Origin: Xenorhabdus miraniensis
GTDB lineage: Bacteria > Pseudomonadota > Gammaproteobacteria > Enterobacterales > Enterobacteriaceae
Length of the DNA: 15,214 nucleotides
NCBI RefSeq assembly: GCF_002632615.1
Contig: NZ_NITZ01000040.1
Coordinates: 1 to 15,214, forward strand
Direction of reading: 5' to 3'
The notes below the pieces were generated by a model, which searched no databases, had not been told where the DNA came from, and saw only the letters and a list, made by a program, of their open reading frames with translations. The position numbers and the translations under genes are program-made. Positions 1-15,214 of the stretch are shown piece by piece (within the stretch, counting starts at the first letter, position 1; the number at the start of each line of letters is the position of its first letter).

Positions 1-80
1 TCACCTAATTCATCGATTTTTCGACGGTGATATTCGGATGCCAGCTTGTCTTTTTTTAAAGCAGAACGAGGCGGTATCAT
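1..80 (-). CDS. IS5-family transposase, N-terminal fragment (runs off left edge)
   Basis: Only the first 26 codons are in the window. The minus strand from ATG at 78-80 reads MIPPRSALKKDKLASEYHRR and then KIDELG, which I recognise as the typical N-terminus of an IS5-family (DDE) transposase. The gene would catalyse movement of its own insertion sequence. A weak ribosome site (AGG) lies about ten bases upstream. The element's 5' end probably lies near 151-159. Whether the rest is intact cannot be seen. The family call rests on the N-terminus alone. Confidence 0.6.
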   Translation of the reverse strand, partial: MIPPRSALKKDKLASEYHRRKIDELG

Positions 81-150
81 GACGGCGCTACCTTGTAGAT
101 ATGTACTGTGTCTACATTTTACTCAATTTTGTGGCTGTGAAAAGTTTTTA

Positions 151-159
151 GAGGTTCCC
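151..159 (-). repeat. Probable terminal end of the IS5-family element
   Basis: Read on the transposase strand, the sequence begins GGGAACCTCTAAAAACTTTT about 75 bases before the transposase ATG. GGGAACCTC is a plausible IS5-type terminal repeat start. The other end is outside the window, so the inverted-repeat partner and target duplication cannot be checked. Confidence 0.35.
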
Positions 160-173
160 ATTAATAAAAAAGT

Positions 174-352
174 GTTGTCTCAGTTGTCTCGGTTGCCTCA
201 AAACAATTAACCTATTGTTTTATAATGATTAATCTTTGAAAAATGAGGCAACAAAGCCTATTTTCTGTTGTCTCAATTTTACTTTTCTTCTCATCATCAA
301 TTTATAATATATTGATAAATAAAGATTTAATTTTGTATTTTGTGTTGTCTCA
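174..352. repeat. Iteron-like cluster of the 9-mer GTTGTCTCA
   Basis: Three copies stand in exact tandem with 9-bp period: GTTGTCTCA (174-182), GTTGTCTCG (183-191) and GTTGCCTCA (192-200). An inverted copy TGAGGCAAC is at 244-252, and two further direct copies GTTGTCTCA are at 267-275 and 344-352, giving six sites in 180 bp of AT-rich DNA. Such arrays are known as replication-initiator iterons or as multi-site operators. No initiator or regulator gene is visible next to it, so the role is unknown. The neighbouring IS end at about 151 may have cut off more copies. Confidence 0.6.
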
Positions 353-366
353 ATTAATTGCTTTAG

Positions 367-486
367 CAACCTGAGCTGTTTCGGTATTGGTGGGTAAAAA
401 GCTATTGTGGAGGGTGTCGCTTGGACATCCGCGTTCAGATGCCGGCAGATTCGGTGTGGAATGTGAGGCAGGGGGAGGGAAATTGA
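367..486 (+). pseudogene. C-terminal remnant of a phage tail-fibre gene
   Basis: The plus-strand frame ending at TGA 484-486 encodes RLDIRVQMPADSVWNVRQ followed by GEGN and a stop. This matches the C-terminal motif RVQMPEDSVWNVKMA of the tail gene at 3651-4799. The frame is closed upstream by TAG at 364-366 and has no start codon, so only the last part of the gene survives. The DNA at 430-464 matches 3703-3737 in inverted orientation at 33 of 35 positions. I read this as the 3' tip of a second tail-fibre gene whose body was removed by deletion or by the IS insertion. Confidence 0.65.
430..464 (+). repeat. Inverted repeat, left copy (tail-fibre 3' end)
   Basis: These 35 bases encode RVQMPADSVWN and are the inverted counterpart of 3703-3737, with two mismatches. 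The pair brackets about 3.2 kb carrying the effector-like gene, the small membrane protein and the mini tail fibre. Confidence 0.75.
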
Positions 487-863
487 ACAGCGTAGAAAAC
501 AACAAACAGTTAATTTATTGAGATGTGGTTGATTTAATTTATTAGCTTATTTTCGAATAAATTCTACAAGTTGTGATATTCGAAAGGCATATAAATACTG
601 AAAAATGGTTATTTTTCTAATTTAATTTCTAACCATTTTATAGTATTAAAAAATGTATTGTTATTAATTCGGTTTTCGACAATTGTAATAATAACCACAC
701 ATGCCATTTTAGTATCTCTACATGGAATGTAAATATAAAATTATTTCATACCGATAATATCACCCATTTCAAAATATGTATTGGTTAGATAAAAATTGGT
801 TTTTTTAAAAAATGTTGTATATGTACGGATAATGAAATTTATTTATATTTATTAAGGATTTTT
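487..863. other. AT-rich intergenic region with a stem-loop
   Basis: No gene is supported here. The stretch is strongly AT-rich. A 10-bp inverted repeat AAAATGGTTA (602-611) / TAACCATTTT (630-639) has an 18-base spacer and could be a weak transcript end or a protein-binding site. The end of the region must hold the promoter of the following gene, but many AT-rich hexamers make any single choice arbitrary. The ribosome site AAGGAT lies about six bases before the ATG at 864. Confidence 0.5.
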
Positions 864-1652
864 ATGTCGGAAAATAATAAGATGAATATGGACTTTTTGA
901 AAGGATTAGATAAAAACATCTGTCCAGTATGTGGTGAAGAAGATTGCCCATACCCAAGAGATAGAAGGGGTGATAAAGTAATTGAAGAGATAATGAAGGA
1001 GTATACCAAAGGTAATATGCCACAGGTGAAAAAATTATATATTTCGAAAATGGTTCCACTTAGAAAAGCAAACTTTGGTAGGGGTAGTTTTGGTTCGAGT
1101 GAAGGATTTTACGATAAAGCCAAAAATAATAAACCCAGCATGAGTTCATTCGGCATGTTGCAGCATTTTTTCGGAAAATCAGGCCGAGAACTGACACTCT
1201 CTGAAATCGGTGTGCATGATCGAGTTCGCGGATTAATGCAGAAACCAGGTGCATTTGGCAGGCCAGAGGGCAGTATTCAGTCTCGTTTTATCTCACAGAT
1301 TCAACGTGGTGAACGAGTTGATTTTGAAAATGGGTATAATTTTGGTCTAGAAAAAAAGGTTCCGGTTTACGATCCACTGTGGGGTATTGGAGGCGCGAAG
1401 ATCAGTGGCAGTCTTACACATGTTAGTGCTGAAAAAGCAGGTGATGGATATAATGTATCTGGTACAATAAATTATAAACTGTATGATAAATTTACTGATC
1501 CATACGACACATTTAATTGGGGAAAAGAGGATATTAATGTGGGTGGTGAGCCATTTGATATCACTGGAGAATGGAAGGAAGATGTAAATTTTCATGTCGA
1601 CAGAAAGATTTTTGATAATAGGCTACTGCAACTTCTTAAGGATAAAAAATAA
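864..1652 (+). CDS. Putative effector/bacteriocin-like protein of unknown family
   Basis: 262 residues, starting at ATG 864 with ribosome site AAGGAT six bases upstream. I do not recognise a named family with certainty. There is no signal peptide or membrane helix. A small cysteine cluster CPVCGEEDC (residues 20-28) is followed by a polar linker. From about residue 97 the order is: hydrophobic MLQHFFGKSG, TLSEIGVHDRVR (111-122), beta-like GAKISGSLTHVS, then GTINYKLYDKFTDPYDTFNW (200-219). This order loosely resembles the colicin M catalytic domain (helix plus NG, IG turn, strands, then DxYD). D212-x-Y214-D215 would match the DxYD motif, but the His-Arg pair expected six residues later is missing; the nearest candidates are H244 and R247. 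The gene sits downstream of a tail-fibre remnant, as morons do. A lipid II-attacking effector is a hypothesis only. Confidence 0.6.
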   Translation: MSENNKMNMDFLKGLDKNICPVCGEEDCPYPRDRRGDKVIEEIMKEYTKGNMPQVKKLYISKMVPLRKANFGRGSFGSSEGFYDKAKNNKPSMSSFGMLQHFFGKSGRELTLSEIGVHDRVRGLMQKPGAFGRPEGSIQSRFISQIQRGERVDFENGYNFGLEKKVPVYDPLWGIGGAKISGSLTHVSAEKAGDGYNVSGTINYKLYDKFTDPYDTFNWGKEDINVGGEPFDITGEWKEDVNFHVDRKIFDNRLLQLLKDKK

Positions 1653-1661
1653 TTTTTTATG

Positions 1662-1687
1662 GTCGCGCATTTAATGCGCGACTTTAT
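1662..1687 (+). terminator. Stem-loop terminator after the effector-like gene
   Basis: A perfect 9-bp stem GTCGCGCAT (1662-1670) / ATGCGCGAC (1674-1682) with loop TTA is followed by TTTATA. It lies 10 bases after the stop codon at 1650-1652. It may also end transcripts of the convergent small gene at 1701-1883, though the minus side lacks a T-run. Confidence 0.75.
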
Positions 1688-1700
1688 ACAAAATATCCAA

Positions 1701-1883
1701 TTAAAATAAATATTGATAAGAAAACTGTGGAATAAGTAGACTTAATATAAAAACAAACGTCATTAATAACGACACCCATATGGTTTTTTTTCCATTTCTT
1801 TCCAATATAAAGAAATGGCTAACCAATATGGTTAAGAAGAAGAAAGTTACAATTGACATAAAAAGCATGGCGACGAATAACAT
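1701..1883 (-). CDS. Small two-helix membrane protein
   Basis: 60 residues with two hydrophobic segments, roughly residues 1-27 and 36-53, separated by a charged turn ERNGKKT. It ends in an aromatic tail (FSYQYLF). The ATG at 1881-1883 is preceded by AAAGGA at good spacing (AAAGGATGTGTT then ATG), which argues for real translation despite the small size. It is convergent with the effector-like gene and lies about 50 bases from its stop. A membrane immunity protein for that gene's product is one possibility, since colicin M-type toxins are countered by membrane-anchored immunity proteins. A phage superinfection-exclusion peptide or an unrelated small membrane protein are alternatives. No family is recognised. 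Confidence 0.5.
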   Translation of the reverse strand: MLFVAMLFMSIVTFFFLTILVSHFFILERNGKKTIWVSLLMTFVFILSLLIPQFSYQYLF

Positions 1884-2020
1884 AACACATCCTTTACCGA
1901 AAACTTTCCGTAATCATATAGATAATTGATTGAAAATCATAATTTTGTTTATAACCCCCCTTGATTCCCTTAATCTCTGGCACAGTGACAGAATTACGTA
2001 AAATCAATAAGTTATATAAA

Positions 2021-2057
2021 GGGGAGATATCCCGCCTTTAGCTATTTTTTTGATTTT
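2021..2057 (+). repeat. Palindromic intergenic repeat, copy 1
   Basis: GGGGAGATATCCCGCCTTTA then GCTA, seven bases, and GATTTT. It aligns without gaps with 2714-2750 at about 29 of 37 positions. The centre is a near-palindrome around GATATC. It overlaps the 3' end of the hypothetical frame at 2038-2280. Confidence 0.5.
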
Positions 2058-2280
2058 TATCATTTATTATAGTATACCTACTCAAGCACGCAATCTCACG
2101 TTCATCATCTAGAGTTTGAATTTGGTAGCGGTGCTTCACAGCTACCCCATTTAAAAATACCATACAAAAATAATAATAAGTTGAGTCGTTTTTAAGTATG
2201 CGAAGTTGTTGGGTTAACATATCTACAACACACGCCTCCCCTATAGTTTTATCCCCTGTTTGGGCATAGATAGAGTACAT
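2038..2280 (-). CDS. Hypothetical protein, possibly the 3' part of a frameshifted gene
   Basis: 80 residues from ATG 2278-2280, of unrecognised family; the ribosome site before this ATG is poor. The same frame stays open upstream to TAA at 2371-2373 and reads plausibly there (DFKVNLNIKTIHIRGYVGTV), but no normal start codon is present. Just upstream, in another frame, minus-strand DNA at about 2366-2437 encodes a single hydrophobic segment (MIVFIFPLIMNIIYLIY within it). A one-base frameshift near 2365-2375 would join them into a membrane-anchored protein of about 130 residues. I cannot tell whether the short product is made. The sequence is flanked by repeats and low in GC. Confidence 0.3.
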   Translation of the reverse strand: MYSIYAQTGDKTIGEACVVDMLTQQLRILKNDSTYYYFCMVFLNGVAVKHRYQIQTLDDEREIACLSRYTIINDKNQKNS

Positions 2281-2487
2281 AACATCTGGTTGACAAGTTG
2301 TGGCAACAGTTCCTACATACCCTCTGATATGAATAGTTTTAATATTTAAATTAACTTTAAAATCAATAAATTAAATAGATAATATTCATTATTAATGGGA
2401 AAATGAACACAATCATGTACAAACAGAAAAAACACTCCATACAGCATATACCAATTGATTTTACACTCACTAAATAAGGGAAGTGGA

Positions 2488-2606
2488 TAGCTATAAGGTG
2501 GGATGTTGCTATAGGGATCTGCCCTTTAACATACGGGATAATCCCGCATATACAAAAGCAAAGGTGTTGTGATTTCCACCATACCCAAGATGGGATATCC
2601 CACCTT
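2488..2606. repeat. Inverted pair of the palindromic repeat core
   Basis: TAGCTATAAGGTGGGAT (2488-2504) is a minus-strand copy of the repeat core. TGGGATATCCCACCTT (2591-2606) is a plus-strand copy containing the perfect 12-bp palindrome TGGGATATCCCA. The 10-bp arms AAGGTGGGAT (2495-2504) and ATCCCACCTT (2597-2606) face each other across 92 bases, an arrangement that could be a small non-autonomous element. Confidence 0.45.
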
Positions 2607-2713
2607 GCGGCAACCATTGGGATTTCCCCAATAGTTGGTTAACTCATTGATTTATCCGAGGCCGTCACTTTGACCACGTAGAGGATTTACGCAGAAATAA
2701 GCAGCAAGTTAAA

Positions 2714-2750
2714 AGTGAGATATCTCACCTTTAGCTAACTGGTTGATTTT
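2714..2750 (+). repeat. Palindromic intergenic repeat, copy with perfect 14-bp palindrome
   Basis: GTGAGATATCTCAC (2715-2728) is a perfect palindrome. It is followed by CTTTAGCTA, seven bases, then GATTTT, as in the copy at 2021-2057. The symmetrical centre is compatible with a dimeric regulator's operator or with a transcribed hairpin. Confidence 0.5.
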
Positions 2751-3059
2751 ACTTATTTCCCGCGCAGTGCAGTAATTCCGGTTCTCTGCCGGAAATAAGG
2801 GATATCAAGGAGTTAACAAGCAGGAGTCTCATTTTTATTTTGCCGAGTTTTGTCAGTTGTCAGATAAATATTACTGATTCCCCATTTGTTGCTTTATGTC
2901 ATTCTGACATCAAAACATACCACTCATCTACTGGGCTTAGTCAAGACTTACTCTTCAGTATTGATGAACCCATTTTATTGATGTTCACCGGCGGAGAAGT
3001 ATCCCACCGCCTTCATGTTACTTAGCAATCTGTATTGTTGATTAAATGAGGGAATAAAT

Positions 3060-3608
3060 ATGCAAGATAAAAAGCCTGATGTACTTGTCTCAGACGGTTG
3101 TAATCTCGTGATCGTTACAACACCGGAATATGTCAAAAAAGCGATTGAAGAACATGCTCAAAGCCGCAACCATCCAAATGCAACACTACAGGATAAGGGG
3201 TTTGTTATCCTAAGCAATGATGTCGGTAGTAATAGCGAAACGATGGCTGCAACACCAAAAGCAGTGAAAGCGGCATACGACTTAGCCAATACAGCTAATC
3301 AAAACGCCACAAAACCTCAAACTAAAAGCTCTATAAAATCAGTCAGTGGATCTTGGAATGTAGGTTCCATCATTTCTATTCCTGCTGATCTGCGTGGGCA
3401 AGTAATTACTTTTGTCAGATTAAGTGGATTAAATGCACAGCACCAAGCACTGCCTGTTCCTCTTGTTGATGGCATAACTGAGCAAAGACTAGCTGGCCCT
3501 CAGAATAACTGGGTGTGGTTAGAATTCAAATTCTCTGACAATTCGACAAATATTACTGTCGTAAATGGCAACAATGCTAATTTTGTTCAGATTTTTTATC
3601 GAGAATAA
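3060..3608 (+). CDS. Short phage tail-fibre-like protein
   Basis: 182 residues. ATG 3060 is preceded by GAGGGAAT, a good ribosome site. Residues about 24-37 (EYVKKAIEEHAQSR) and about 43-80 (TLQDKGFVILSNDVGSN, then SETMAATPKAVKAAYDLAN) match the phage tail-fibre repeat seen in P2-type H proteins. A low-complexity Asn/Thr/Lys linker follows, then a C-terminal domain of about 80 residues (from SGSWNVGSI to FVQIFYRE), beta-rich in character, that may be the receptor-binding tip. The long N-terminal baseplate-attachment part of P2 H is absent, so the protein is far shorter than a complete fibre. It has its own ribosome site and no disruption. It is convergent with the larger tail gene. It could be a moron-like orphan fibre or a leftover of an exchangeable fibre cassette. 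Confidence 0.75.
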   Translation: MQDKKPDVLVSDGCNLVIVTTPEYVKKAIEEHAQSRNHPNATLQDKGFVILSNDVGSNSETMAATPKAVKAAYDLANTANQNATKPQTKSSIKSVSGSWNVGSIISIPADLRGQVITFVRLSGLNAQHQALPVPLVDGITEQRLAGPQNNWVWLEFKFSDNSTNITVVNGNNANFVQIFYRE

Positions 3609-3629
3609 TGAAAATAAAAACCAACTTTC

Positions 3630-3646
3630 AGGGGCGCACAGCCCCT
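3630..3646. terminator. Stem-loop between convergent tail genes
   Basis: AGGGGC (3630-3635) / GCCCCT (3641-3646) with a 5-base loop lies immediately after the minus-strand stop TAG at 3651-3653. On the minus strand it is followed after nine bases by a T-run. It probably ends the tail-gene transcript; on the plus side the tail is weak. Confidence 0.5.
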
Positions 3647-3650
3647 ATTG

Positions 3651-4799
3651 CTACTCCACCTGTTCAGCCAACCCAACATCAGAAGCTGTCTTTGCCATCT
3701 TCACATTCCACACCGAATCTTCCGGCATCTGGACGCGGACAGAGATAGACCTGCCTGTGGGGATATCAATCAAATCACCGTCAGTGTAGCCCTCACGGAC
3801 ATTTCTGGCGAATACTGGCGCCTCAGAGTGCTCACGGTGGTATGTCATTAATTTGATGGAACCATCAGGCAGCACTTTGTAATCGACCCAAATCAGCGGT
3901 AATTTATTTTTGCATAGGGGTATTTCAACTCCGCCATCGACGCCGCCCCACGCTGCATCGGCATTAAATCCCAGCACGTTTTTGATGAGATAAACGCCCT
4001 CAGACAGGCGCTCAACGGTTGCCCCCTCTGATTCGTCATTGGTGATACCCGTGCCGTCACTGGTGATTTGGATGATGGGCGAGGCTGTTTTTAAGTAGCC
4101 ATCAATCGCATAACAATTTCCCCCAAGGGCTAAAACCTGACCGCTGACGCCTTTTTGAAATATAAAACTTGAATGCGTCAGAAGTCCTGTTTGAATAATG
4201 ATATACCCATGCTCACCGTGTGTACCAAAGTTAACCCTGAGTCCGGTTCCTGAGTGTTGAGCTAAGAAATTTGTCCAGCCGCCGCCGCTGGCTTTCACTT
4301 CATTGGCAAAATTTACACTCGTATTCTGAATAGCCGCATCTGCCAATCCAAGGTTTTTCACAAACGCTGATTTATCCAGAATATCTGCCCCGTTCTGTGC
4401 ATTATCCAGTTTCCCCTCCATCGCTGCCTGCAATGCCCGGATTGATTGCAACGATACCGTTTGGCCGTTCGGTAAGGTCACCTCCACTGTCCCGGTCTGG
4501 CTCATCCATCTGTCCATATTCTGGAGGAAGCCAATGATGGAGCTGGTATTCGCCACCATATGCCGGACACCATCCGAGATAGAATCGGGGATAGTAATCT
4601 GAATCTGGTACTTAACATTATTCAGGGTGGTTTTAGCTGCATCAGCCAGTACCAGTTCGGTATCCGAGTTCACCGCCTGAATCATGTGCAGTAATTTACT
4701 GTTGCCGGACTGGATTAAAATGACCTGCCCCGGTGCAACGCCGTTGAGATTCGATTTAAATCTGGTGCCCGTGCCGCGGACAATAGCCGAGCCGGACAC
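3651..4799 (-). CDS. Phage tail (fibre) protein with disrupted native start
   Basis: The open frame from GTG 4797-4799 gives 382 residues. The better initiation site is upstream: ATG at 4827-4829 behind AGGAA. However, its second codon is TAA (4824-4826), after which the same frame reads YSQGTLSI and runs into the GTG. The natural protein was therefore probably about 392 residues, starting M-x-YSQGTLSIVSGSAIVRG, and the gene carries a nonsense mutation at codon 2, unless translation restarts at GTG. The N-terminal 90 residues are a beta domain typical of lambdoid tail proteins (SGSAIVRGTGTRFKSNL). The middle (about 115-160) is helical, and the C-terminal half is Gly-rich. The C-terminal motif RVQMPEDSVWNV recurs in the remnant at 367-486. 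It is the last gene of the minus-strand prophage run. Function: tail tip or fibre in host recognition. Confidence 0.65.
   Translation of the reverse strand: MSGSAIVRGTGTRFKSNLNGVAPGQVILIQSGNSKLLHMIQAVNSDTELVLADAAKTTLNNVKYQIQITIPDSISDGVRHMVANTSSIIGFLQNMDRWMSQTGTVEVTLPNGQTVSLQSIRALQAAMEGKLDNAQNGADILDKSAFVKNLGLADAAIQNTSVNFANEVKASGGGWTNFLAQHSGTGLRVNFGTHGEHGYIIIQTGLLTHSSFIFQKGVSGQVLALGGNCYAIDGYLKTASPIIQITSDGTGITNDESEGATVERLSEGVYLIKNVLGFNADAAWGGVDGGVEIPLCKNKLPLIWVDYKVLPDGSIKLMTYHREHSEAPVFARNVREGYTDGDLIDIPTGRSISVRVQMPEDSVWNVKMAKTASDVGLAEQVE
3703..3737 (-). repeat. Inverted repeat, right copy (tail-fibre 3' end)
   Basis: Lies inside the 3' end of the tail gene (codons for RVQMPEDSVWN). It matches 430-464 in opposite orientation at 33 of 35 bases. 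Confidence 0.75.
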
Positions 4800-4846
4800 A
4801 ATGGAAAGAGTGCCTTGTGAATATTACATGGTGTGTTCCTGAGAAG

Positions 4847-5152
4847 TTAGAAGTTGAAATAACTGGCAGCGTCTAAGATAAGAATGGGTTGTTTTGTTGT
4901 GTAGTTGGTCGTTCCCCACTGGCTCGCTTTCCAGTATGAGCGTTTGCCTGAACTAATAAATAACGCTCCCTCCCCATTGCTGGTCAGTGACAAATCCCGG
5001 CTGTAGGCGGTACTCCCTTCCATCCACAGATGATACCCTATCACAGGCAGGCACCAACATCGGGTATCCGTTATCAAAATAGCGTTATCCGTGATGAACG
5101 AGGGTGAGTTGTAAACGCTAAGTTGATTACTGGTAGAAATGAAAAAGGCCAC
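4847..5152 (-). CDS. Hypothetical protein of the tail region, probably 5'-truncated
   Basis: 101 residues from GTG 5150-5152. No ribosome site is evident, and the frame continues upstream (TYTLNSRLRSG) to the TAA at 5186-5188, which is also the stop of the preceding gene. The protein is beta-rich with Trp/Cys clusters (DTRCWCLPVIGYHLW) and ends ILDAASYFNF. Its position, 17 bases before the native ATG of the tail gene and in the same direction, suggests the C-terminal remainder of a tail accessory protein. Base composition is clearly more GC-rich than the gene upstream, so the two probably have different origins. I do not recognise the family. Confidence 0.4.
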   Translation of the reverse strand: MAFFISTSNQLSVYNSPSFITDNAILITDTRCWCLPVIGYHLWMEGSTAYSRDLSLTSNGEGALFISSGKRSYWKASQWGTTNYTTKQPILILDAASYFNF

Positions 5153-5185
5153 ACCAGAGCGCAGCCTTGAATTCAGTGTGTAGGT

Positions 5186-5659
5186 TTATTTCCAGTTGAA
5201 GCAAAAATGCAATGTATTACCTAAATTGTGTTTCAGTAGTTCACCTAGTTGTTTTGCACCATCAGAAACATAAAGAAAATAAGTTTCAAGAGAGGGTGCG
5301 TGAGGACTAACAGAACCAAGATTATAAGTTGAACCATTCGCCATTATTTCAAGGTTCTTACTTCCTAAGTATGGTTGGTTTTGTGTATCAACTTCTAACT
5401 GTAATCCCCAGAAAGTACCAATGGGGACCTCAATTAGTTTGAATGCTAATATGTTTCCAACTCCCATTGTGCTTTGAAGATTTGTCAGGGTGCCAATAGG
5501 TAGTGTACCCGTCCCATCTTCGCCTGGAGCCGAACGCCCCCATTCTTGAACTTTATCATAATCTGGATTACCACCATTATAAAATTGGATGGTTCCTATA
5601 TTAAGATCAAAAGACAACATAGTACCTTCTGGACACACTGGCTTATTAACGTCAGACAT
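5186..5659 (-). CDS. Unrecognised 157-residue protein in the prophage remnant
   Basis: ATG 5657-5659 has a good ribosome site (GAGGGATTT then ATG). The frame is intact, and the protein looks soluble and beta-rich (many Gly, Thr, Asn; motifs VPIGTFWGLQLEVD and GNTLHFCFNWK at the C-terminus), with no signal peptide or membrane segment. I recognise no family. It lies in the orientation of the phage genes but is more AT-rich than the tail genes downstream and is undisrupted while its neighbours are broken, which fits a later-acquired accessory gene. It is in the same frame as 4847-5152 with a single TAA between, so a split 271-residue gene is an alternative. The natural-looking C-terminal strand and the composition change argue against that. 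Confidence 0.55.
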   Translation of the reverse strand: MSDVNKPVCPEGTMLSFDLNIGTIQFYNGGNPDYDKVQEWGRSAPGEDGTGTLPIGTLTNLQSTMGVGNILAFKLIEVPIGTFWGLQLEVDTQNQPYLGSKNLEIMANGSTYNLGSVSPHAPSLETYFLYVSDGAKQLGELLKHNLGNTLHFCFNWK

Positions 5660-5865
5660 AAATCCCTCACTTATTATTTGTTAAAGGTCATTTCATCCTA
5701 CTGCTAAATAGCCAGTTAATATTACTTAGGTCAGGTTTTTATCTCAATTAAATAGACCATAGCAGAATCAATACGCATTAAAATATGGTGGTGCATTATA
5801 AAATCTGTCTATTTGTCGAGTGCACGATTCAATGAGTTGTATATTTGAAGTTTGGTGCTAACAGT

Positions 5866-6117
5866 TTATTTACCGCTCGGCTTTTCTCTTGCCGCCCAAT
5901 AGCGATCCATTTCTTCCGGTGTGGCTTTCTGGTCTTCAAACGCATCACCGATTTTCAAGCCATCGGGTAATTGCGCCCATGCGACATAGAAATACCGGGG
6001 TTCAAACTCATCGCCTATCCATCAATAAATGCCAGCGTATTCCCCTTCCCAAAAATGCACATAGCCAATATGCCAGCCATCGCAAGGATTGTAGACCAGT
6101 ACTTCTTTGCCATTCAT
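5866..6117 (-). pseudogene. DUF551-like phage protein with in-frame TGA
   Basis: From ATG 6115-6117 the minus strand reads MNGKEVLVYNPCDGWHIGYV, then HFWEGEYAGIY, TGA (6022-6024), WIGDEFEPRYFYVAWAQLPD, then a charged tail to TAA at 5866-5868. Apart from the single TGA the 84-codon frame is open. The pattern (VLVY...GW.IG...W...WAQLPD) resembles the small DUF551-type proteins common in lambdoid and enterobacterial prophages, of unknown function. The frame extends upstream without a start to a TAG, so the N-terminus may also be lost. Selenocysteine recoding is unlikely: no such family is known to use it and the neighbours are also broken. Confidence 0.55.
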
Positions 6118-6196
6118 ATCAGGTGTGGGCTGTTCAGATGCAGGACGGATAATTAAGGATTCTGTGACAGGTGCAGACTACGTTCCCCCAGAAAGC

Positions 6197-6221
6197 AAAA
6201 AACCCCGCCAAAGCGAGGTCT
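6197..6221 (-). terminator. Rho-independent terminator
   Basis: On the minus strand ACCTCGCTTTGGCGGGGTTT continues to a run of six T. The stem is CCTCGC/GCGGGG (one G-T pair). It lies about 60 bases after the antiterminator remnant and before the DUF551-like frame. This is a typical lambdoid intergenic terminator. Confidence 0.75.
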
Positions 6222-6237
6222 GAAATTAATAAGCTGT

Positions 6238-6253
6238 GTGACATTGCTGTCAC
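6238..6253. repeat. Hairpin GTGACA/TGTCAC
   Basis: A perfect 6-bp inverted repeat with a 4-base loop, GTGACATTGCTGTCAC, sits between the antiterminator stop and the terminator. It may be part of the late-promoter or terminator region, or an operator; nothing more can be said. Confidence 0.3.
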
Positions 6254-6281
6254 TCTTATCACAGCATACTGACTTTTGTAA

Positions 6282-6515
6282 TTACGCAACCCTATTAACG
6301 GTTTCTTTTTGCACGCCTTTATCCAGTTCCAAAACGACATCTGAAACGGCCAGTACGCCTTCAATAAATCCCTCGGCTGCCTGTAATCATTTGGCGACTT
6401 TGTTATGAGAAATCCCTAATTTCGTGCCCATTGGCCTGAGTGGCAGTGCCTTAATATAATGCAACACAATCAACTGATAATAATAAGGATTGTGTTTCTT
6501 CAAGCGCAGAATATC
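6282..6515 (-). pseudogene. Phage antitermination protein Q remnant (C-terminal half)
   Basis: The minus-strand frame reads YDILRLKKHNPYYYQLIVLH then YIKALPLRPMGTKLGISHNK, VAK, TGA (6387-6389), LQAAEGFIEGVLAVSDVVLE, and ends QKETVNRVA with TAA at 6282-6284. The RLKK motif, helix-turn-helix-like segment and (R)LQxAEGFIEGxLxxxDxxLExD tail match the QuuD-type antiterminator Q of lambdoid prophages, which lets RNA polymerase read through into late genes. The N-terminal half is missing and replaced by integrase sequence. The TGA may come from CGA (Arg), a C-to-T change. The late lysis and head genes it would activate are gone. Confidence 0.65.
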
Positions 6516-7528
6516 GTACTCATCGTATGGCGGAATCCGTGGCCTGTAGCTCTACCGCCATACCCCATTCGCTTCATCATGGTATTCAATGCCATATCAG
6601 ATAGATGATTTTTATAATTTGTACGGCTTGGAAAAACATATTGATAGCTACCACTGATAGGCTGAATCTGCTTCAATAAATTAATAGCTTGTTCTGGCAG
6701 TGGCACGATATGGGGACGACGCATTTTCATTTTTTCGGCTGAAATTTCCCAAATCGCCTTATCTAAATCAATTTCTGACCATTCAGCCTTGCGAAGTTCC
6801 CCAGGTCGAACACCCGTTAATATAAGAATACGCAAAGCCACTCTAACGATCTGGCTTCCCATATATTTATCAACGGAACGCAAAAATTCAGGTAGCTCAT
6901 TTACTGAAAGGTGAGCATAATGTCCACGTTTATGGGGAACAAAGGCGCTCGCTAAATCTGGTGCGGGATTGTATTCTGCCCTGCCAGTAATAATTGCGTA
7001 TTTCCATACTTCACCGCAGCGCTGTCGAACTTTCTTCAACTTTTCTGTAGCCCCTCTCTTTTTCATAATAGAAAGGAGGTCTAATAATTCGAGGGGTTTT
7101 ATTTCAGCAATCGGACGATCACCTATATAAGGGAATACATCATTTTAAAATGCGTCCATCATATCTTCACGATAACCAACAGACCATCTGTCTTTTCTTC
7201 CCTCGTACCATTCACGCGCAATGCTTTCAAAGGTGTTACTAATTTCTCCCTGAGTTGCCAGTTTCTTTTGTTTTTTATCTTGGTTGGGATCAATACCTTC
7301 GGCTATCAGTTTCTTGGCTTCATCACGCTTTCTTCTGGCCTCTGCCAATGTAATAAGTGGAAAAGTGCCAATAGCGAGTAACTTTTCTTTTCCTGCAATG
7401 CGGTATTTCAGTCTCCAGTATTTAGAACCGGTTGTCTTTACCAACAGGTATAAACCGCCGCCATCCGATAGCTTAAAATCTTTATCTTGGGGTTTTACTG
7501 TTTCAACTTGTCGGGCTGTTAGTTTCAT
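6500..7528 (-). pseudogene. int: P4-type tyrosine integrase, nonsense-mutated and C-terminally truncated
   Basis: Starts MKLTARQVETVKPQDKDFKL at ATG 7526-7528 (AAGGA upstream). Codons 1-90 form the N-terminal arm-binding domain (DUF4102 type), followed by the core-binding domain. Codon 128 is TAA (7145-7147) where relatives have Glu (F-x-NDVFPYIG); the frame then continues unbroken. The catalytic domain shows the first Arg in TGVRPGELRKAEW (about codon 241) and the GHGFRHT box (His/Arg about 330-333). Just after MSTI the sequence changes to antiterminator DNA, so the last box and the catalytic Tyr are absent; full-length relatives are about 400 residues. It is inactive as a recombinase. Its position 194 bases from the 3' end of tRNA-Ser fits integration there. 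Confidence 0.8.
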
Positions 7529-7543
7529 ATTTCTAGCATCCTT

Positions 7544-7618
7544 GCCCCCTCACAGTAATGGGGGTATTTTCTAGGAGGTACAGAAAGTTACCCCTATATA
7601 TACCCCCTGATTGGGGTA
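7544..7618. promoter_or_regulatory. GGGGTA repeats, candidate integrase arm-type sites
   Basis: Between int and the tRNA stand GGGGGTA (7560-7566), TTACCCCTA (7588-7595 region), TACCCCCTGA (7601-7610) and TTGGGGTAC (7611-7619). TACCCC (7601-7606) and GGGGTA (7613-7618) form an inverted repeat. Short repeats of this kind beside a P4-type integrase are where arm-binding domains and excisionase act. The assignment is inferred from position. Confidence 0.45.
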
Positions 7619-7721
7619 CATTGCAATAGATGCCAGTAGACGTTGATAGAGTGTTATTTGGGGATTTTCTTTGATTTTACTAGGGAAAGTAGACTTTAAG
7701 AGATGCTGCTAGAAGTGTAAC

Positions 7722-7750
7722 TGGCGGAGGAGGAGAGATTCGAACTCTCG
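7722..7750. other. Probable prophage attachment site (3' end of serT)
   Basis: The integrase gene reads away from the tRNA 3' end, and P4-type integrases usually recombine at such ends, rebuilding the tRNA. No second copy of this 3' sequence is visible in the window, so the distal attachment site was deleted or lies elsewhere. Extent is approximate. Confidence 0.4.
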
Positions 7751-7809
7751 GATGGTTTCCCATCGGCGGTTTTCAAGACCGCTGCCTTCAGCCGCTCGGC
7801 CACCCCTCC
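7722..7809 (-). tRNA. serT: tRNA-Ser (anticodon UGA)
   Basis: The 88-base minus-strand gene runs from GGAGGGGTGGCCGAGCGGCT to ...CTCCTCCGCCA. The acceptor stem GGAGGGG/CTCCTCC pairs with one G-T. The anticodon stem GCGGT/ACCGC encloses loop CTTGAAA with anticodon TGA at 7773-7775. The long variable arm (CGATGGGAAACCATC region) is of class II serine type. The T-loop GTTCGAATC and CCA are encoded. It reads UCA and UCG-type serine codons. The identity with E. coli serT and its neighbour tusE support the symbol. It is intact, so the integration preserved function. Confidence 0.95.
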
Positions 7810-7821
7810 GCGATGTCGAGC

Positions 7822-7850
7822 ACTATAAACATCACTGTTCTCAATGTAAA
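7822..7850 (-). promoter_or_regulatory. Sigma-70 promoter of tRNA-Ser
   Basis: On the minus strand, -35 TTTACA (7845-7850), a 17-base spacer and -10 TATAGT (7822-7827) place the start about 5-8 bases before the mature tRNA 5' end at 7809, giving a very short leader. It is close to consensus. Confidence 0.75.
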
Positions 7851-7991
7851 GCATTTATCTGTTCAACTGCCGTCAATTTATTCACATTACTATCTGTTGG
7901 TCTATTTATTCAGCATATTTGGCAATCTTTCTTGGGAATAGTGGTGATTTTTGCTAAATTGCAGCCATCGTAATTGGATGGTTAAAAAATT

Positions 7992-8321
7992 ATGTTGGTA
8001 TTTGAAGGTCGTGAAATTGAAACCGATGCGCAGGGTTATCTAAAAAATAGCCGTGACTGGCAAGAAACCATGGCTCCTATTCTTGCTGAACAGGAAGCAA
8101 TCACTCTAACCGAACAGCACTGGGAAGTGATACGTTTTGTGCGTGAATTCTACGAAGAATTTAATACTTCTCCCGCTATTCGTATGTTAGTTAAGGCACT
8201 CTCTCAAAAATATGGTGAGGAAAAAGGGAACAGCCGTTACCTTTATCGACTATTCCCCAAAGGGCCGGCAAAACAAGCAACAAAAATTGCGGGCCTTCCG
8301 AAACCAGTCAAGTGTATTTGA
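7992..8321 (+). CDS. tusE: Sulfurtransferase TusE (DsrC/TusE family)
   Basis: 109 residues, the same length as E. coli TusE and alignable end to end ([17 protein letters not shown] start; [33 protein letters not shown]-terminus KPVKCI). TusE accepts persulfide sulfur from the TusBCD complex on its penultimate cysteine, Cys108, and hands it with MnmA to wobble uridine 34 of tRNAs for Lys, Glu and Gln (2-thiouridine). Cys108 is present. The protein is cytoplasmic. The start at ATG 7992 matches the family; the ribosome site is weak (GGATGG about ten bases upstream). It is divergent from serT and convergent with acyP. In E. coli yccA lies between tusE and serT; here it does not. Confidence 0.96.
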
Positions 8322-8327
8322 TCTCTT

Positions 8328-8349
8328 CATCCGTCGTTAATGGCGGATG
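8328..8349. terminator. Stem-loop between tusE and acyP
   Basis: CATCCGTC (8328-8335) / GGCGGATG (8342-8349), eight pairs with one G-T and a 6-base loop. It lies 6 bases after the tusE stop and overlaps the end of the convergent acylphosphatase gene. The T-run is poor on both sides. Confidence 0.4.
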
Positions 8350-8618
8350 CTAAAATCAGTCATCTCTTCTACTTCACAAAATTGTGACTCGAAATGTTCG
8401 ATCTTGGCACCCGGAGGCCCTCCCTGTTCCAGCCAATGCGTTAACATTTTGATTTGCGTATCATCACCACAAGCAACAATTTTAACGCTGCCATCATTCA
8501 TATTACGAACATATCCCACCAGCTTATTTTTCTTTGCCCAATGGTACGTTTTATAACGGAATCCAACGCCCTGTACCCGGCCGTAAACATAAATAATAAT
8601 GTTGTATTTGGTCATCAT
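8337..8618 (-). CDS. acyP: Acylphosphatase
   Basis: 93 residues, usual length. It hydrolyses acyl phosphates (carbamoyl or acetyl phosphate, 1,3-bisphosphoglycerate) to carboxylate and phosphate in the cytoplasm. Both family signatures are present: GRVQGVGFRYKTY with catalytic Arg21, and GYVRNMNDGSVKI with catalytic Asn39. GGPPGA (about 66-71) and the final strand MTDFSIRH are also typical. Two ATGs stand in tandem at 8616-8618 and 8613-8615; the ribosome site GGGAGGGG lies about four bases before the first. E. coli calls it yccX. In E. coli rlmI follows it before hspQ; here that gene is missing. Confidence 0.95.
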   Translation of the reverse strand: MMTKYNIIIYVYGRVQGVGFRYKTYHWAKKNKLVGYVRNMNDGSVKIVACGDDTQIKMLTHWLEQGGPPGAKIEHFESQFCEVEEMTDFSIRH

Positions 8619-8778
8619 TACGCCCCTCCCAAAGCAGATAGTAAGAACTTTGAAACGTTAAACCCACTTTTGGTATTGTATTTTATATACGCAACAGCTA
8701 ACCTGAAATTATGGGGTGGCGATCACATGCCATCTTAGTTTCAAAAATCATGCAAAAATTCCGGCTACCGGGTATGCA

Positions 8779-8806
8779 CTTGAAATTTACCTTATTGCCC
8801 TTATAT
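8779..8806 (+). promoter_or_regulatory. Candidate sigma-32 (heat-shock) promoter of hspQ
   Basis: CTTGAA (8779-8784), 13 bases, then CCCTTATAT (8798-8806) fits the sigma-32 consensus CTTGAA-N13-CCCCATnT well. The predicted start is about 30 bases before the hspQ ATG. E. coli hspQ is known to be heat-inducible through sigma-32, which supports the call. Confidence 0.65.
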
Positions 8807-8842
8807 AAGAGTCATTGCAAGGTTTCTTTGGAGGTGACTATG

Positions 8843-9160
8843 ATGATCGCCAGCAAATTCGGTATCGGCCAGCAAGTACGACATAAGCTGCTGGGTTATT
8901 TGGGTGTTGTTGTAGATATTGATGCTGAATATTCTTTAGAACAGCCGCAGGAAAATGATATTGCATCTAATGCTACTTTACGTTCAGCTCCGTGGTACCA
9001 CGTTGTGATGGAAGGTGATGATGGGCAACCCGTCCATACTTATCTGGCAGAAGCTCAATTGACTTATGAAACATCAGATGACCACCCAGAACAACCTTCC
9101 ATGGATGAGTTGGCCGAGTCAATCCGCAATCAATTGCAAGCCCCACGACTACGAAATTAA
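8843..9160 (+). CDS. hspQ: Heat shock protein HspQ
   Basis: 105 residues, matching E. coli HspQ throughout ([63 protein letters not shown]). HspQ is a small cytoplasmic heat-shock protein; it promotes turnover of mutant DnaA and acts as a specificity-enhancing partner of the Lon protease. A longer frame opens at 8711, but the family start is MIASK. GGAGGTGA at 8830-8837 is spaced for the ATG at 8843 (a tandem ATG stands at 8840). A sigma-32-type promoter lies upstream at 8779-8806, inside the longer frame, which also excludes the upstream start. It is convergent with the CoA-binding protein gene. Confidence 0.95.
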
Positions 9161-9194
9161 ACGCTCTTATTTACCCTTGTTTAAATCATTCCGG

Positions 9195-9228
9195 TAAGGT
9201 GGTGCATAATAAAACGCTCACCACCTTA
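9195..9228. terminator. Stem-loop between hspQ and yccU
   Basis: TAAGGTGGTG (9195-9204) / CACCACCTTA (9219-9228), ten pairs with a 14-base loop, followed on the plus strand by TTTATTTCT. It probably ends hspQ transcripts and perhaps those of the convergent gene. Confidence 0.6.
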
Positions 9229-9229
9229 T

Positions 9230-9643
9230 TTATTTCTCCATACCCAAGCGCGGGATTTCAATTTTAGGGCAACAATCCATCACAACATCCAATCCCTCGT
9301 GTTCTGCCAGTGATTTTGCTTCTTCATTGATGATGTCTTTCTGTAACCAAAGCACTTTTGCACCAATAGCGATTGCTTCTTCAGCCACACCGTAAGCCGC
9401 TGTCGCATTACGGAATACATCAACCATATCCACTGGTTGATTAATATCTGCTAATTGACTTACAACAGGCTGCCCCAACAAAGTTTGCCCTGCCAATTTA
9501 GGACTGACAGGAATGACTTTATATCCCTGATTCAGTAAGTATTTCATTACCTTATAGCTTGGACGCTCTGGTTTATCACTCGCACCTACCAACGCTATTG
9601 TTTTGACCTTTCTCAGTATAGTCGCTATATATTGATCATTCAT
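9230..9643 (-). CDS. yccU: CoA-binding protein (YccU family)
   Basis: 137 residues, the same length as E. coli YccU. It is a CoA_binding_2 (Rossmann-like) domain: the [20 protein letters not shown] loop binds the nucleotide, followed by [27 protein letters not shown] and [15 protein letters not shown]. The protein is cytoplasmic; its exact reaction is not known, and CoA binding is inferred from the fold. ATG 9641-9643 is preceded by AGGGGG. Next to mgsA, as in E. coli, but yccT, which separates them there, is absent; here yccU and mgsA are divergent across 155 bases. Confidence 0.92.
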
Positions 9644-9698
9644 TTAGCCCCCTATATTACCTTTAGTCGTTACTCCATGACGCAACAGCTATTTTCAT

Positions 9699-9726
9699 TT
9701 GGTTTATCTGCTACAGTATTTATGAT
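9699..9726 (+). promoter_or_regulatory. Possible sigma-70 promoter of mgsA
   Basis: TTGGTT (9699-9704), 16 bases, then TATGAT (9721-9726), about 72 bases before the mgsA ATG. The -35 is imperfect. A CCATTT/AAATGG inverted repeat follows near 9753-9768 in the leader. Confidence 0.4.
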
Positions 9727-9798
9727 AATCACGGCTGTTTTTTATTATCTTGCCATTTAAAAAAATGGTAAATCATTTATTCATATAAAGGTATCACC

Positions 9799-10257
9799 AT
9801 GGAATCAACGGTTCGCACCTTGGCAAAATCAAAAAATATCGCCCTTGTCGCCCATGACCACTGTAAAAAAGCCTTACTAGACTGGGCCAATACACATAAG
9901 TCCTTATTAAACAGGCATACTCTGTATGCGACAGGAACGACAGGGCATTTAATTCAGCAAAAGACGGGACTCACTATTACAAGTATGCTGAGTGGGCCAA
10001 TGGGAGGTGATCAACAAATTGGTGCCCTAATTTCTGAAGGAAAAATCGATGTTTTGATTTTCTTGTGGGACCCTTTGAATGCAGTTCCACATGATCCTGA
10101 TGTCAAAGCTCTGCTACGTTTAGCCACTGTTTGGAATATTCCCGTTGCTACTAACCTCTCAAGTGCCGATTTTCTTATCAACTCCGCGCTTTTTTCAGAA
10201 GAAGTCGATATCAGCGTACCAGATTATCAACGCTATCTTAATGAAAGACTCCAATAA
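9799..10257 (+). CDS. mgsA: Methylglyoxal synthase
   Basis: 152 residues, colinear with E. coli MgsA. It converts dihydroxyacetone phosphate to methylglyoxal and phosphate, a cytoplasmic bypass of lower glycolysis used when sugar phosphates accumulate. Visible active-site elements: LVAHDHCK with His19, the phosphate loop [23 protein letters not shown] with catalytic Asp71, [20 protein letters not shown] with Asp91, His98 and Asp101, and [11 protein letters not shown]. The ATG at 9799 has AAAGG upstream. A clear terminator follows. Flanked by yccU and, convergently, helD, as in E. coli. Confidence 0.97.
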
Positions 10258-10269
10258 TCAGAACGGAAA

Positions 10270-10298
10270 TGGGAGAGCCAAACTCTCCCCCCATTTTT
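10270..10298 (+). terminator. Rho-independent terminator of mgsA
   Basis: GGGAGAG (10271-10277) / CTCTCCC (10283-10289), seven pairs with a 5-base loop, followed by CCCAT and a run of five T. It begins 13 bases after the mgsA stop. Confidence 0.8.
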
Positions 10299-10328
10299 AA
10301 TCTTGTTTTTTCTGGTGTTGATACGGTT

Positions 10329-12383
10329 TTAAGGTTTACGCTGAGTGGGTACGCCTAATTGCAACAATTGATGAATGAATATCGATGGATTTTTCGGTTC
10401 CTGCATCAACCAAACCTGTTTTTTTGCCCGTGTCAGTGCAACATATAAAAGACGGCGTTCTTCCGCATCAGGAAAATCTTCAGGTTGCGGTAATAAAACG
10501 TGTTCTATCACAGATTCCCTCGCGGGTGCCGGAAAACCATCTTTTCCCTGATGTAGTCCCAGAATAATGACATACTCCGCTTGTTGCCCTTTAGACGCAT
10601 GAATTGTCATAAATTCGATCTGCAAATTTGGCCAGCGAGTTGGTGCTTTGTTCAATAGTTCTGGCTTGAGATGATAATAGCGTGCCAATAATAAGATGGT
10701 TTCCTGCTTGGTAACATAACCGCTCATTTTATTAAGCAGTGCTTCCAACTGTTCTTCCGGCAAAATCACAACCGATTTTTTATTGCCTTTTATCAATCTA
10801 TTAAGTGGATTAGCTAATTGATGAGGATTTTGTTGCACAAATCGGTTGGCTATTTCACTGATACGATCATTGAAACGATAAGTCGTATCTAACGTGCATT
10901 TTGTACCATCACCAAAATAAGTTGGAAAAGCTATCATTAAAGTTAATTCTGCACCACTAGGACGATAAATTGCTTGCAAATCATCTCCCACAGCGAATAG
11001 ATGGCTTTGTTTATTTTGCGCCTTCAGCGCTGTCAATAATTTGGCCTTCAGCGGTGAAATATCCTGGAATTCATCAATCAGAATATGTTTCCATGGACTG
11101 ATAAATTGCCCTTTTTGTAAAATATTCACAGCCTGATGGATTAAACCATAAAAATCGACTGCACCTTCAGATTTCAGTGCCGATTTCCAAGCCTTCAACA
11201 AAGGAGCCATAAGCCGTATACGTTTCTGAAATAGGTAAGCATAAGCAGCAGGTGCCTGTTTAATCATCTCTTTCTGACTGCCGCCATGCCTACGCATCAA
11301 TCCCAGCCAGCGTTCCAGACGAACAGATAGCTTATCTGTTAATTGGTTATCGTGCCAATATTCACCTTCTGGTAATTGCCAATCCAGTTCTTCATCTAAC
11401 CATTCCCGCCAACCTTTCGCTTGTGCTTTTTTTTCGCCACACTGCTTTTGCCATTCTTGGATGAGAAAGTTACGACGCTTCTGAGCATCAATTTCCAGTT
11501 CACTAATCTTGGTTTCTTTATTGCTTCCTTGCTGAATAATATGCAGAGCCAAGGCATGAAATGTTTTTGCTTTTACCTCTTTTATTCCCAAACGCGCCTG
11601 AATGCGTTCATTCATTTGACCAGCAGCCTGACGATCAAAAGCCAACAGCAAGATCTGTTCGGGAAGAGCTTGTTGACGCAATAACAACCACCCAGAACGC
11701 GCCATCAAAACAGTGGTTTTTCCGCTCCCCGCACCGGCTAAGACTAAAATATTTTTCTCACCATTAATAACCGCCTGACACTGAGAACGATCAAGTGGTG
11801 AAGTTTCTATGGTCCGGAAAAATTCCTCATGTTGCGCCAAAACACGATCCATCCAACCCTGGTTCATAGCCTGAATTGTTTTTTCACCCTTATACAACCA
11901 ATCCAAACAAATCTGATAATCATCACGACAGTTCTCAAATTGTGTGATTCGTTGTAATGGAAGAGGTAGTGACTGGAATGTTTCTTGGATTTGTTGCTGC
12001 AATGAAGTTAATTCTGCAATTTTCAACCAGCGATCTTGTTGGCCGATTTTATTAATTTCATTCACTTGAGCAGCCAATACTTCCGCACTGACATCGCTCA
12101 TATCGAGGCTCCATTTTTGCCATTCCTTTAATAAGTAATGGTAAAAATGTTGGGTTTGCTGCCATTCAGTACCATGCAGACGAACCACTTTTCCCTCAGG
12201 TAATTCAAATTCCAGTTCCCCCCAGACAATCCCTCGCTTACACTGAATGCCAATCAATTGATTAAATGGAATAAGGTACTGGTGCTTATCACCACTGACT
12301 TCAATGCCAGCATTAAGCAGACGCACCCTGTTATAAGGATGTTGGGCAAGTCGTTGCCCGATTTGCGTTGATTTGAGTTCCAT
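10329..12383 (-). CDS. helD: DNA helicase IV (UvrD/Rep-type superfamily 1)
   Basis: 684 residues, equal to E. coli HelD. It is an ATP-driven 3'-5' helicase that loads on single-stranded DNA. The N-terminal 200 residues are the HelD-specific region (ELKSTQIGQRLAQHPYNRV; GELEFELPEGKVVRLHGTEW). Walker A GAGSGKTT is at 217-224. HILIDEFQDISPLKAKLL is Walker B, VGDDLQAIY motif III, LDTTYRFN motif IV-like, EFMTIHASKGQQAEYVII motif V, and DAEERRLLYVALTRAKKQ motif VI. Compared with the E. coli sequence as I remember it (GDDWQAIYRFSGA), residues 469 and 475 are Leu and Pro instead of Trp and Phe; the second site corresponds to the aromatic that stacks on DNA bases in related helicases. Start ATG 12381-12383 matches the family; the ribosome site is weak. 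Divergent from yccS; yccF is missing between them. Confidence 0.96.
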   Translation of the reverse strand: MELKSTQIGQRLAQHPYNRVRLLNAGIEVSGDKHQYLIPFNQLIGIQCKRGIVWGELEFELPEGKVVRLHGTEWQQTQHFYHYLLKEWQKWSLDMSDVSAEVLAAQVNEINKIGQQDRWLKIAELTSLQQQIQETFQSLPLPLQRITQFENCRDDYQICLDWLYKGEKTIQAMNQGWMDRVLAQHEEFFRTIETSPLDRSQCQAVINGEKNILVLAGAGSGKTTVLMARSGWLLLRQQALPEQILLLAFDRQAAGQMNERIQARLGIKEVKAKTFHALALHIIQQGSNKETKISELEIDAQKRRNFLIQEWQKQCGEKKAQAKGWREWLDEELDWQLPEGEYWHDNQLTDKLSVRLERWLGLMRRHGGSQKEMIKQAPAAYAYLFQKRIRLMAPLLKAWKSALKSEGAVDFYGLIHQAVNILQKGQFISPWKHILIDEFQDISPLKAKLLTALKAQNKQSHLFAVGDDLQAIYRPSGAELTLMIAFPTYFGDGTKCTLDTTYRFNDRISEIANRFVQQNPHQLANPLNRLIKGNKKSVVILPEEQLEALLNKMSGYVTKQETILLLARYYHLKPELLNKAPTRWPNLQIEFMTIHASKGQQAEYVIILGLHQGKDGFPAPARESVIEHVLLPQPEDFPDAEERRLLYVALTRAKKQVWLMQEPKNPSIFIHQLLQLGVPTQRKP

Positions 12384-12449
12384 TGTCGTGGCACCGTACC
12401 TGAAAATTGTTGAACTACTTCATCACGTAAATGTTGTTAGGGGTATTTT

Positions 12450-14603: not shown

Positions 14604-14984
14604 AGATCATTCTATAGGGGGCTATCCCGCCCCTTAATAATATAGTGAAATTATTTTCTGCAATAATGCAACGAATTAATAATACAACAAACACTGTTAA
14701 AAAATCATCATCAAATAAATAATATGAACAAATACTATTTTAATTTCCAATAAAAAAGATATTACAAATATTAACATCATGGACATTCATTTTTTAATAT
14801 TGATTACATATAGAATTTCTGTAAATTCACAAATCCATAAAAACAAAAAACCACCCTATTAATGAGTTTAATTTTCATTAAAAAATAAAACAGAATACTT
14901 TTGGTTTTGTAAATACGCGGGAAATATACCAATCGCCATTGAAGATGCTTGATTTATCACCCAAATCAGATCATGCTTGCAACC
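14604..14984. other. AT-rich intergenic region downstream of yccS
   Basis: No gene is supported. AGGGG (14616-14620) / CCCCT (14630-14634) forms a weak stem-loop just after yccS that may end its transcript, without a T-run. TTAATGA / TCATTAA-type inverted sequence lies near 14860-14880. The left end of the IS630-type element should be within the last 100 bases; TATACCAAT at 14925-14933 is a candidate because IS630 elements insert at TA. Confidence 0.4.
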
Positions 14985-15214
14985 ATGAAAATTCATCTGA
15001 CACCAGAACAAAAACGTGCCCTCGAATTGATGCATGATACCACTCGTGACAGTCGAGTCTGTGATCGCATCAAGGCCGTGCTTTTAGCCTCCGAAGGCTG
15101 GACAGCTCAGATGATTGCACAGGCCTTGCGTATTCATGAAAGTACGGTCAGCCGTCATCTAAAAGATTTCATCGCTCAGGAAAAGTTCACCCCGGAAAAT
15201 GGCGGCTCTGAAAG
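14985..15214 (+). CDS. IS630-family transposase, N-terminal part (runs off right edge)
   Basis: 76 codons are visible: MKIHLTPEQKRALELMHDTT, then RDSRVCDRIKAVLLASEGWT and AQMIAQALRIHESTVSRHLK. This is the characteristic N-terminal helix-turn-helix of IS630 (Tc1/mariner-like) transposases; the DDE catalytic domain is outside the window. The ATG at 14985 fits the family start; an in-frame ATG at 14973 (MLAT) is an alternative. No strong ribosome site is seen. It lies where sxy and sulA follow yccS in E. coli. Completeness cannot be judged. Confidence 0.8.
   Translation, partial: MKIHLTPEQKRALELMHDTTRDSRVCDRIKAVLLASEGWTAQMIAQALRIHESTVSRHLKDFIAQEKFTPENGGSE

Follow-up and report, generated by a model that had tools for sequence, protein, structure and literature searches.

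A candidate colicin M-like toxin with a colicin Z-type N-terminal module in prophage debris of Xenorhabdus miraniensis

Introduction

Colicin M requires residues D226, Y228, D229, H235, and R236 (PMC8469651), and a 2018 review termed its catalytic mechanism elusive (PMC5821083). Colicin Z was reported to depend on CjrC, CjrB, and ExbBD in a paper that assigns the protein domains in its own way and for which a literature search counts zero occurrences of the word "cysteine" (PMC6668396). A novel toxin domain has also been unified with the colicin M fold, and it could be the family treated here or another (PMC12419801). Here we analyze a gene (864-1652, plus strand) encoding a 262-residue protein within a 15,214-nucleotide stretch of DNA from the insect-associated bacterium Xenorhabdus miraniensis (assembly GCF_002632615.1, contig NZ_NITZ01000040.1, positions 1 to 15,214, forward strand). 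This whole stretch is called the window, and residue and coordinate numbers refer to the 262-residue protein and to the window, respectively. We favor, with a probability of roughly 0.62, the view that the gene encodes a modular bacteriocin-type antibacterial toxin, colicin M-like in its C-terminal domain and carried as prophage cargo together with an immunity gene. Going by titles and the opening lines of abstracts, a literature search recognized no paper on this toxin family.

Results

An intact gene with a colicin Z-type N-terminal module

The open reading frame (ORF) is uninterrupted, begins with ATG, and is immediately preceded by an AAGGA ribosome-site-like stretch. Its nearest relatives, which match over the full length, come from Xenorhabdus hominickii (85% identical), X. 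anantnagensis (85%), and Photorhabdus temperata (82%), so the frame did not arise by chance. The ratio of nonsynonymous to synonymous substitution rates (dN/dS) was 0.21-0.30 in comparisons with loci L001, L002, and L003. The initial annotation of this DNA, which had described an intact gene with a ribosome site in AT-rich surroundings (25% GC at positions 501-1000), is borne out on these points, as is its N-terminal C-x2-C-x4-C cluster (C20, C23, and C28). It missed the colicin Z-type character of this region, a convergent membrane protein gene, and the spread of the C-terminal domain to type VI secretion system (T6SS)-type and phage proteins.

Over residues 10-71, the protein matches NF041263, the NCBIfam model for colicin Z (E 1.6e-6, profile positions 48-106 of 229), with a score of 28.1 bits, well short of the curated cut-off of 300 for full-length colicin Z. 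The model matched 9 of 20 relatives (E ≤ 1). When it was run over 394 genomes belonging to the order, it gave two matches, of which one is the X. hominickii copy. A protein search with the N-terminal module returned only the module itself among three candidates. The three cysteines and the glycine following the second cysteine are kept in all 14 sequences of an alignment that includes colicin Z, and the C-x2-C-G-x3-C module is defined from that alignment.

When the module was used as a tblastn query against a plasmid collection, weak similarity (E 0.07-0.4) was detected in seven Serratia and Raoultella records. A 575-residue Serratia protein combines the module (E 3.8e-36 with the colicin Z model) with Pyocin_S and Colicin_D domains, and its first 119 residues matched 21 plasmid records, pColZ itself among them, 12 of which matched across at least 80% of the query. 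Because the killing parts differ among the proteins that carry it, the module, judged from these comparisons, most likely serves receptor binding or import. A Serratia plasmid bacteriocin of this composition (colicin Z-type N-terminus, Pyocin_S, and Colicin_D) lies at positions 2363-4353 of locus L021, and the 88-residue ORF downstream of it may be its immunity gene.

A C-terminal domain with a predicted colicin M-like fold

AlphaFold (AF2) models were obtained with predicted local distance difference test scores of 82 for the whole protein and 88 for the C-terminal domain alone. By VIA-align ranks 1-12 obtained with the two models, the modeled domain appears to have the colicin M catalytic-domain fold. 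Foldseek searches against PDB and BFVD gave no match at E ≤ 1e-3, the top row for both models being PDB 9jdi (E 0.019 and 0.009). A sequence profile searched against PDB sequences gave one match at chance level (E 0.17), and a Pfam scan of the protein gave zero families at E ≤ 10. The initial annotation had offered a new toxin fold as an alternative; given the fold ranking toward colicin M, this was set aside as unneeded. PF14859 was sought first in 5 genomes and then in 369 without a match, a result that is uninformative, as 14 control genomes equally lacked it.

Profile comparison was done with hhalign using 41 copies of the domain and eight colicin M catalytic domains. The local alignment gave a probability of 35-39 (E 3e-4 to 4e-4) and a score of 30, versus at most 21.7 for 30 column shuffles and 13.9 for the reversed alignment, and the global score was 30.8 versus at most 12.3 for 40 shuffles. 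When the domain was split at residue 171, a position of our own choosing, the first halves matched with a probability of 76 (E 2e-5, score 29.4; 60 shuffles gave at most 14.3). The match of the second halves was weak (local probability 5; global score 13.3, with 60 shuffles giving at most 9.4). As the scores topped those of column-shuffled controls, the resemblance of the C-terminal segments to colicin M exceeds chance at the profile level, and the order LQHFFGKSG, IG, strands, and FTDPYD pointed out in the initial annotation was found as described. The second-half alignment set F210-T-D-P-Y-D215 on colicin M Y224-D-D-K-Y-D229, such that D212, Y214, and D215 fall on D226, Y228, and D229, with colicin M H235 and R236 facing a gap.

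In conservation counts over the 41 copies, in which gaps were scored as misses, the aspartates are well kept (D208 in 38, D212 in 38, and D215 in 37 copies). Near-fixed positions elsewhere are S137 (38/41), R141 (37/41), N156 (40/41), Y158 (41/41), and E163 (35/41), and F142 and F154 behave likewise.

A convergent two-helix immunity candidate

Downstream of and convergent with the toxin gene lies a gene for a 60-residue protein in which a simple hydropathy window predicts two transmembrane (TM) segments. In the set of loci searched by tblastn, all 12 from Xenorhabdus and Photorhabdus encode a relative of this protein next to the toxin gene (E no higher than 4e-7), and the remaining seven loci of that set contain no relative below E 0.1. 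A script run on 25 loci (L018, L019, L026, and L027 were left out) found an opposite-strand gene for a two-TM protein of 60-82 residues in 19, another predicted membrane protein adjacent in four (L012, L014, L015, and L020), and no membrane gene within 900 bases in two (L016 and L017). These 25 loci are not independent, because the ORFs of L048 are the same as those of L001 and L049-L052 are near-identical. The dN/dS of the small gene was 0.13-0.23 against L001, L002, L003, L009, and L010 and 0.13-0.26 across the full set of pairs, with few changes; the toxin gene gave 0.21-0.30 across its pairs. Taken together, its sequence and placement suggest that the 60-residue protein is probably the immunity protein.

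Between the two genes stands a hairpin with fold z-scores of -4.6 on the plus strand and -2.8 on the minus strand. The initial annotation had given the toxin gene its own terminator; a stable hairpin does follow the stop codon, but it lies between two convergent genes and is probably their shared terminator, and a simple scan of positions 600-2100 gave zero terminator-like sites (promoter-like sites numbered 9 versus 8.8 expected). Hairpins made of other letters were seen by eye at L001, L002, L003, L006, L007, L009, L010, and L048 and missing at L049 (nine loci inspected). Matches to a LexA box were no more numerous than in shuffles. Beyond the immunity candidate, a frame of 80-100 residues (2038-2340, minus strand) has Pfam matches not above chance.

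Prophage setting and mobility of the toxin domain

At loci L001 and L048, the toxin and small genes are flanked by a tail-fibre gene (identified as such at L001) and an integrase gene, near a dihydrouridine synthase gene, whereas at L026 the pair sits within a lambda-type tail operon. These relatives are thus cargo between phage structural or integration genes, in agreement with the moron-like character first proposed. In the window itself, the short upstream segment encoding LDIRVQMPADSVWNVRQGEGN-stop is similar to the terminal part of the intact L048 tail-fibre gene, which supports the tail-fibre 3' remnant noted before. Further copies are plasmid-borne, one on a plasmid of 10.6 kb. A collection of 50,697 phage records contained no relative at E ≤ 0.1, and IMG/VR contigs yielded one and four loci.

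The C-terminal domain is mobile. Residues 88-252 match PHROG 31798 (function not assigned) at E 1e-35, and the domain follows PAAR domains in P0019, P0020, P0022, P0025, P0026, and P0028-P0030, a gp5-like trimerisation domain in P0031, and, in L015 from a Spirochaetales metagenome-assembled genome, a phage tail protein. In L016 it is joined to a Phage_Mu_F domain (E 7e-13). L016 4488-5477 and L017 4566-5555, on Brucella-genus contigs, are fusions of a Mu F-like head protein with the toxin domain, the Mu-F part having been shown for L016. In the Photorhabdus/Xenorhabdus proteins P0008 and P0013-P0015 the domain stands behind long N-termini lacking a convincing Pfam match. It is present twice in P0006 and P0007, whose first copies (residues 77-244 and 28-195, respectively) look degenerate, with Asn at positions 208 and 215 and Arg for the near-invariant Gly 176.

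The window is prophage debris holding more than one tail-fibre end. A second tail-fibre block occupies 3060-5659 and includes ORFs 3060-3608 (plus strand) and 3651-4799 (minus strand), with 4847-5152 and 5186-5659 (both minus strand) lacking a convincing PHROG match. A tRNA-Ser gene at 7722-7809 (minus strand), probably the entry point of the island, adjoins a gene at 6500-7528 (minus strand) that by eye resembles a phage-type integrase gene; this gene is interrupted and reads as two ORFs of 188 and 127 residues.

Table 1 Coordinates of the features of the toxin locus in the window
Feature	Position	Strand	Basis
Toxin gene, 262 residues; N-terminal C-x2-C-G-x3-C module and colicin M-like C-terminal domain	864..1652	+	
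N-terminal module, residues about 10-75	891..1088	+	NCBIfam NF041263 match, relatives, 14-sequence alignment
Toxin domain, residues 88-255, predicted colicin M-like fold	1125..1628	+	PHROG 31798, two AF2 models, VIA-align, hhalign
Candidate active-site acids, codons 208-215 (D-K-F-T-D-P-Y-D)	1485..1508	+	Conservation, alignment to colicin M DxYD
Hairpin between the convergent genes, probable shared terminator	1662..1682	.	Fold z-scores
Immunity candidate, 60 residues, two predicted TM segments	1701..1883	-	tblastn, hydropathy, dN/dS
3' remnant of phage tail-fibre gene	421..486	+	Read by eye versus intact gene end at L048

Discussion

In the reading we favor, the N-terminal cysteine module would probably bind an outer-membrane receptor and/or mediate import into rival Gram-negative cells, and the C-terminal domain would then probably act in the periplasm on lipid II, the substrate that we infer, or on a close undecaprenyl-linked headgroup. 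Catalysis would proceed through the Asp cluster D208/D212/D215 at the position of the colicin M DxYD site without a His-Arg pair. The 60-residue two-TM protein would reside in the inner membrane of the producer and protect it, and release would occur through phage or cell lysis. By the tests made, the toxin falls outside PF14859, yet it probably works like colicin M.

Several results weigh against so close a likeness. Pfam Colicin_M was found in none of the 20 relatives scanned (E ≤ 1). Of the DxYDx5HR motif, the DxYD position is there, although its tyrosine is variable (Y214 is Tyr in 30/41 copies), and the His-Arg pair is gone: none follows the motif in any of the 36 readable copies, the remaining five being truncated or having a changed motif. 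That the pair is not at its usual place had been seen in the initial annotation, which had also taken loss of D212, Y214, and D215 among homologues as a sign against a colicin M-like domain; such a loss was found in part, at Y214, whereas D212 and D215 are kept. Moreover, a forced whole-domain alignment set the colicin M YDFN near the Y158 motif, and because it chose this other second-half register, the residue-level match to DxYD appears moderate, not firm. The colicin M-like domain claimed at the outset is supported by the fold ranking and the shuffle-controlled profile alignment. Since colicin M needs D226, Y228, D229, H235, and R236, the catalytic chemistry must differ in part from that of colicin M.

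These same changes bear on the target. A colicin M fold with a changed active site could act on something other than lipid II; undecaprenyl phosphate, undecaprenyl pyrophosphate, a different lipid-linked sugar, and peptidoglycan itself are examples. The lost His-Arg pair, the catalytic Tyr that is not kept, and the other nearly invariant residues of the 41 copies point in that direction, and motif-changed colicin M-type domains are thought to lack phosphatase function (PMC5821083, PMC8469651). We consider this unlikely, however, as the Asp residues and fold are retained and membrane-type immunity is also known in several colicin M-type systems (PMC8469651). A more far-reaching reading, to which we give tentative credence somewhat short of even, is a separate colicin M-fold lineage lacking His-Arg. 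Its site would be rebuilt from D208/D212/D215 with R141, N156, Y158, or E163, and it would perhaps have another undecaprenyl-linked substrate; the small proteins would form a new immunity family of about 60 residues with two TM segments, and C-x2-C-G-x3-C would be an unrecognized import module common to bacteriocins of three killing types.

That the likeness to colicin M reflects just a common strand arrangement, in a cytoplasmic or membrane-acting toxin (a nuclease, pore former, or other), seems improbable. Prophage location near tail-fibre and integrase genes would also suit a phage superinfection or lysis-helper protein that is no weapon against rivals, with the two-TM protein as an antiholin-like regulator. 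Such a role is highly improbable, as homologous domains stand behind PAAR and gp5-like domains and also occur on plasmids, and the N-terminal module is found in colicin Z and in the Serratia bacteriocin with a Colicin_D domain. If the colicin M-like bacteriocin reading is true, the colicin M mechanism could be probed via a natural variant lacking residues essential in colicin M. The locus would further establish an import module that is portable among bacteriocins, along with an immunity protein of minimal, two-helix build. A single toxin domain would also be seen to move among bacteriocins that diffuse, spikes of the T6SS type, and virion proteins of phages.

Among known systems, the top structural row and a member of the VIA-align top 12 is the C-terminal domain of BtpeA, a Bacteroides fragilis T6SS effector (PDB 9jdi), which differs in sharing only 10-13% identity; a literature search by name and topic found no paper on BtpeA. 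DUF3289, described as a T6SS effector (PMC12135965), forms DUF3289/DUF943 effector-immunity pairs that are likewise reported as diverged colicin M-like cargo with cognate immunity (PMC11148199). As a bridge to colicin M, DUF3289 was dropped: hhalign with 16 DUF3289 sequences detected neither the toxin family (probability 0.8) nor colicin M (likewise just 0.5) and is thus blind to the relation. The L016 pairing of Phage_Mu_F with the toxin domain resembles the MuF polymorphic toxins known from temperate phages (PMC5576092), although the window protein itself has no Mu-F match. Colicin Z (pColZ; NF041263) has the same C-x2-C-G-x3-C module and, at the place taken by the immunity candidate in the window, a convergent membrane immunity gene downstream (PMC6668396), whereas the window protein differs beyond matched profile positions 48-106. 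With the colicin M family (colicin M, PaeM, pectocins M1 and M2, and syringacin M; PF14859), the toxin shares the predicted C-terminal fold, the HYxxGxG...L..IG segment, and the alignment of D212/Y214/D215. It differs from that family in having no PF14859 match, no His-Arg pair, and a variable Y214, and it combines an N-terminus of the colicin Z type with a different small immunity candidate.
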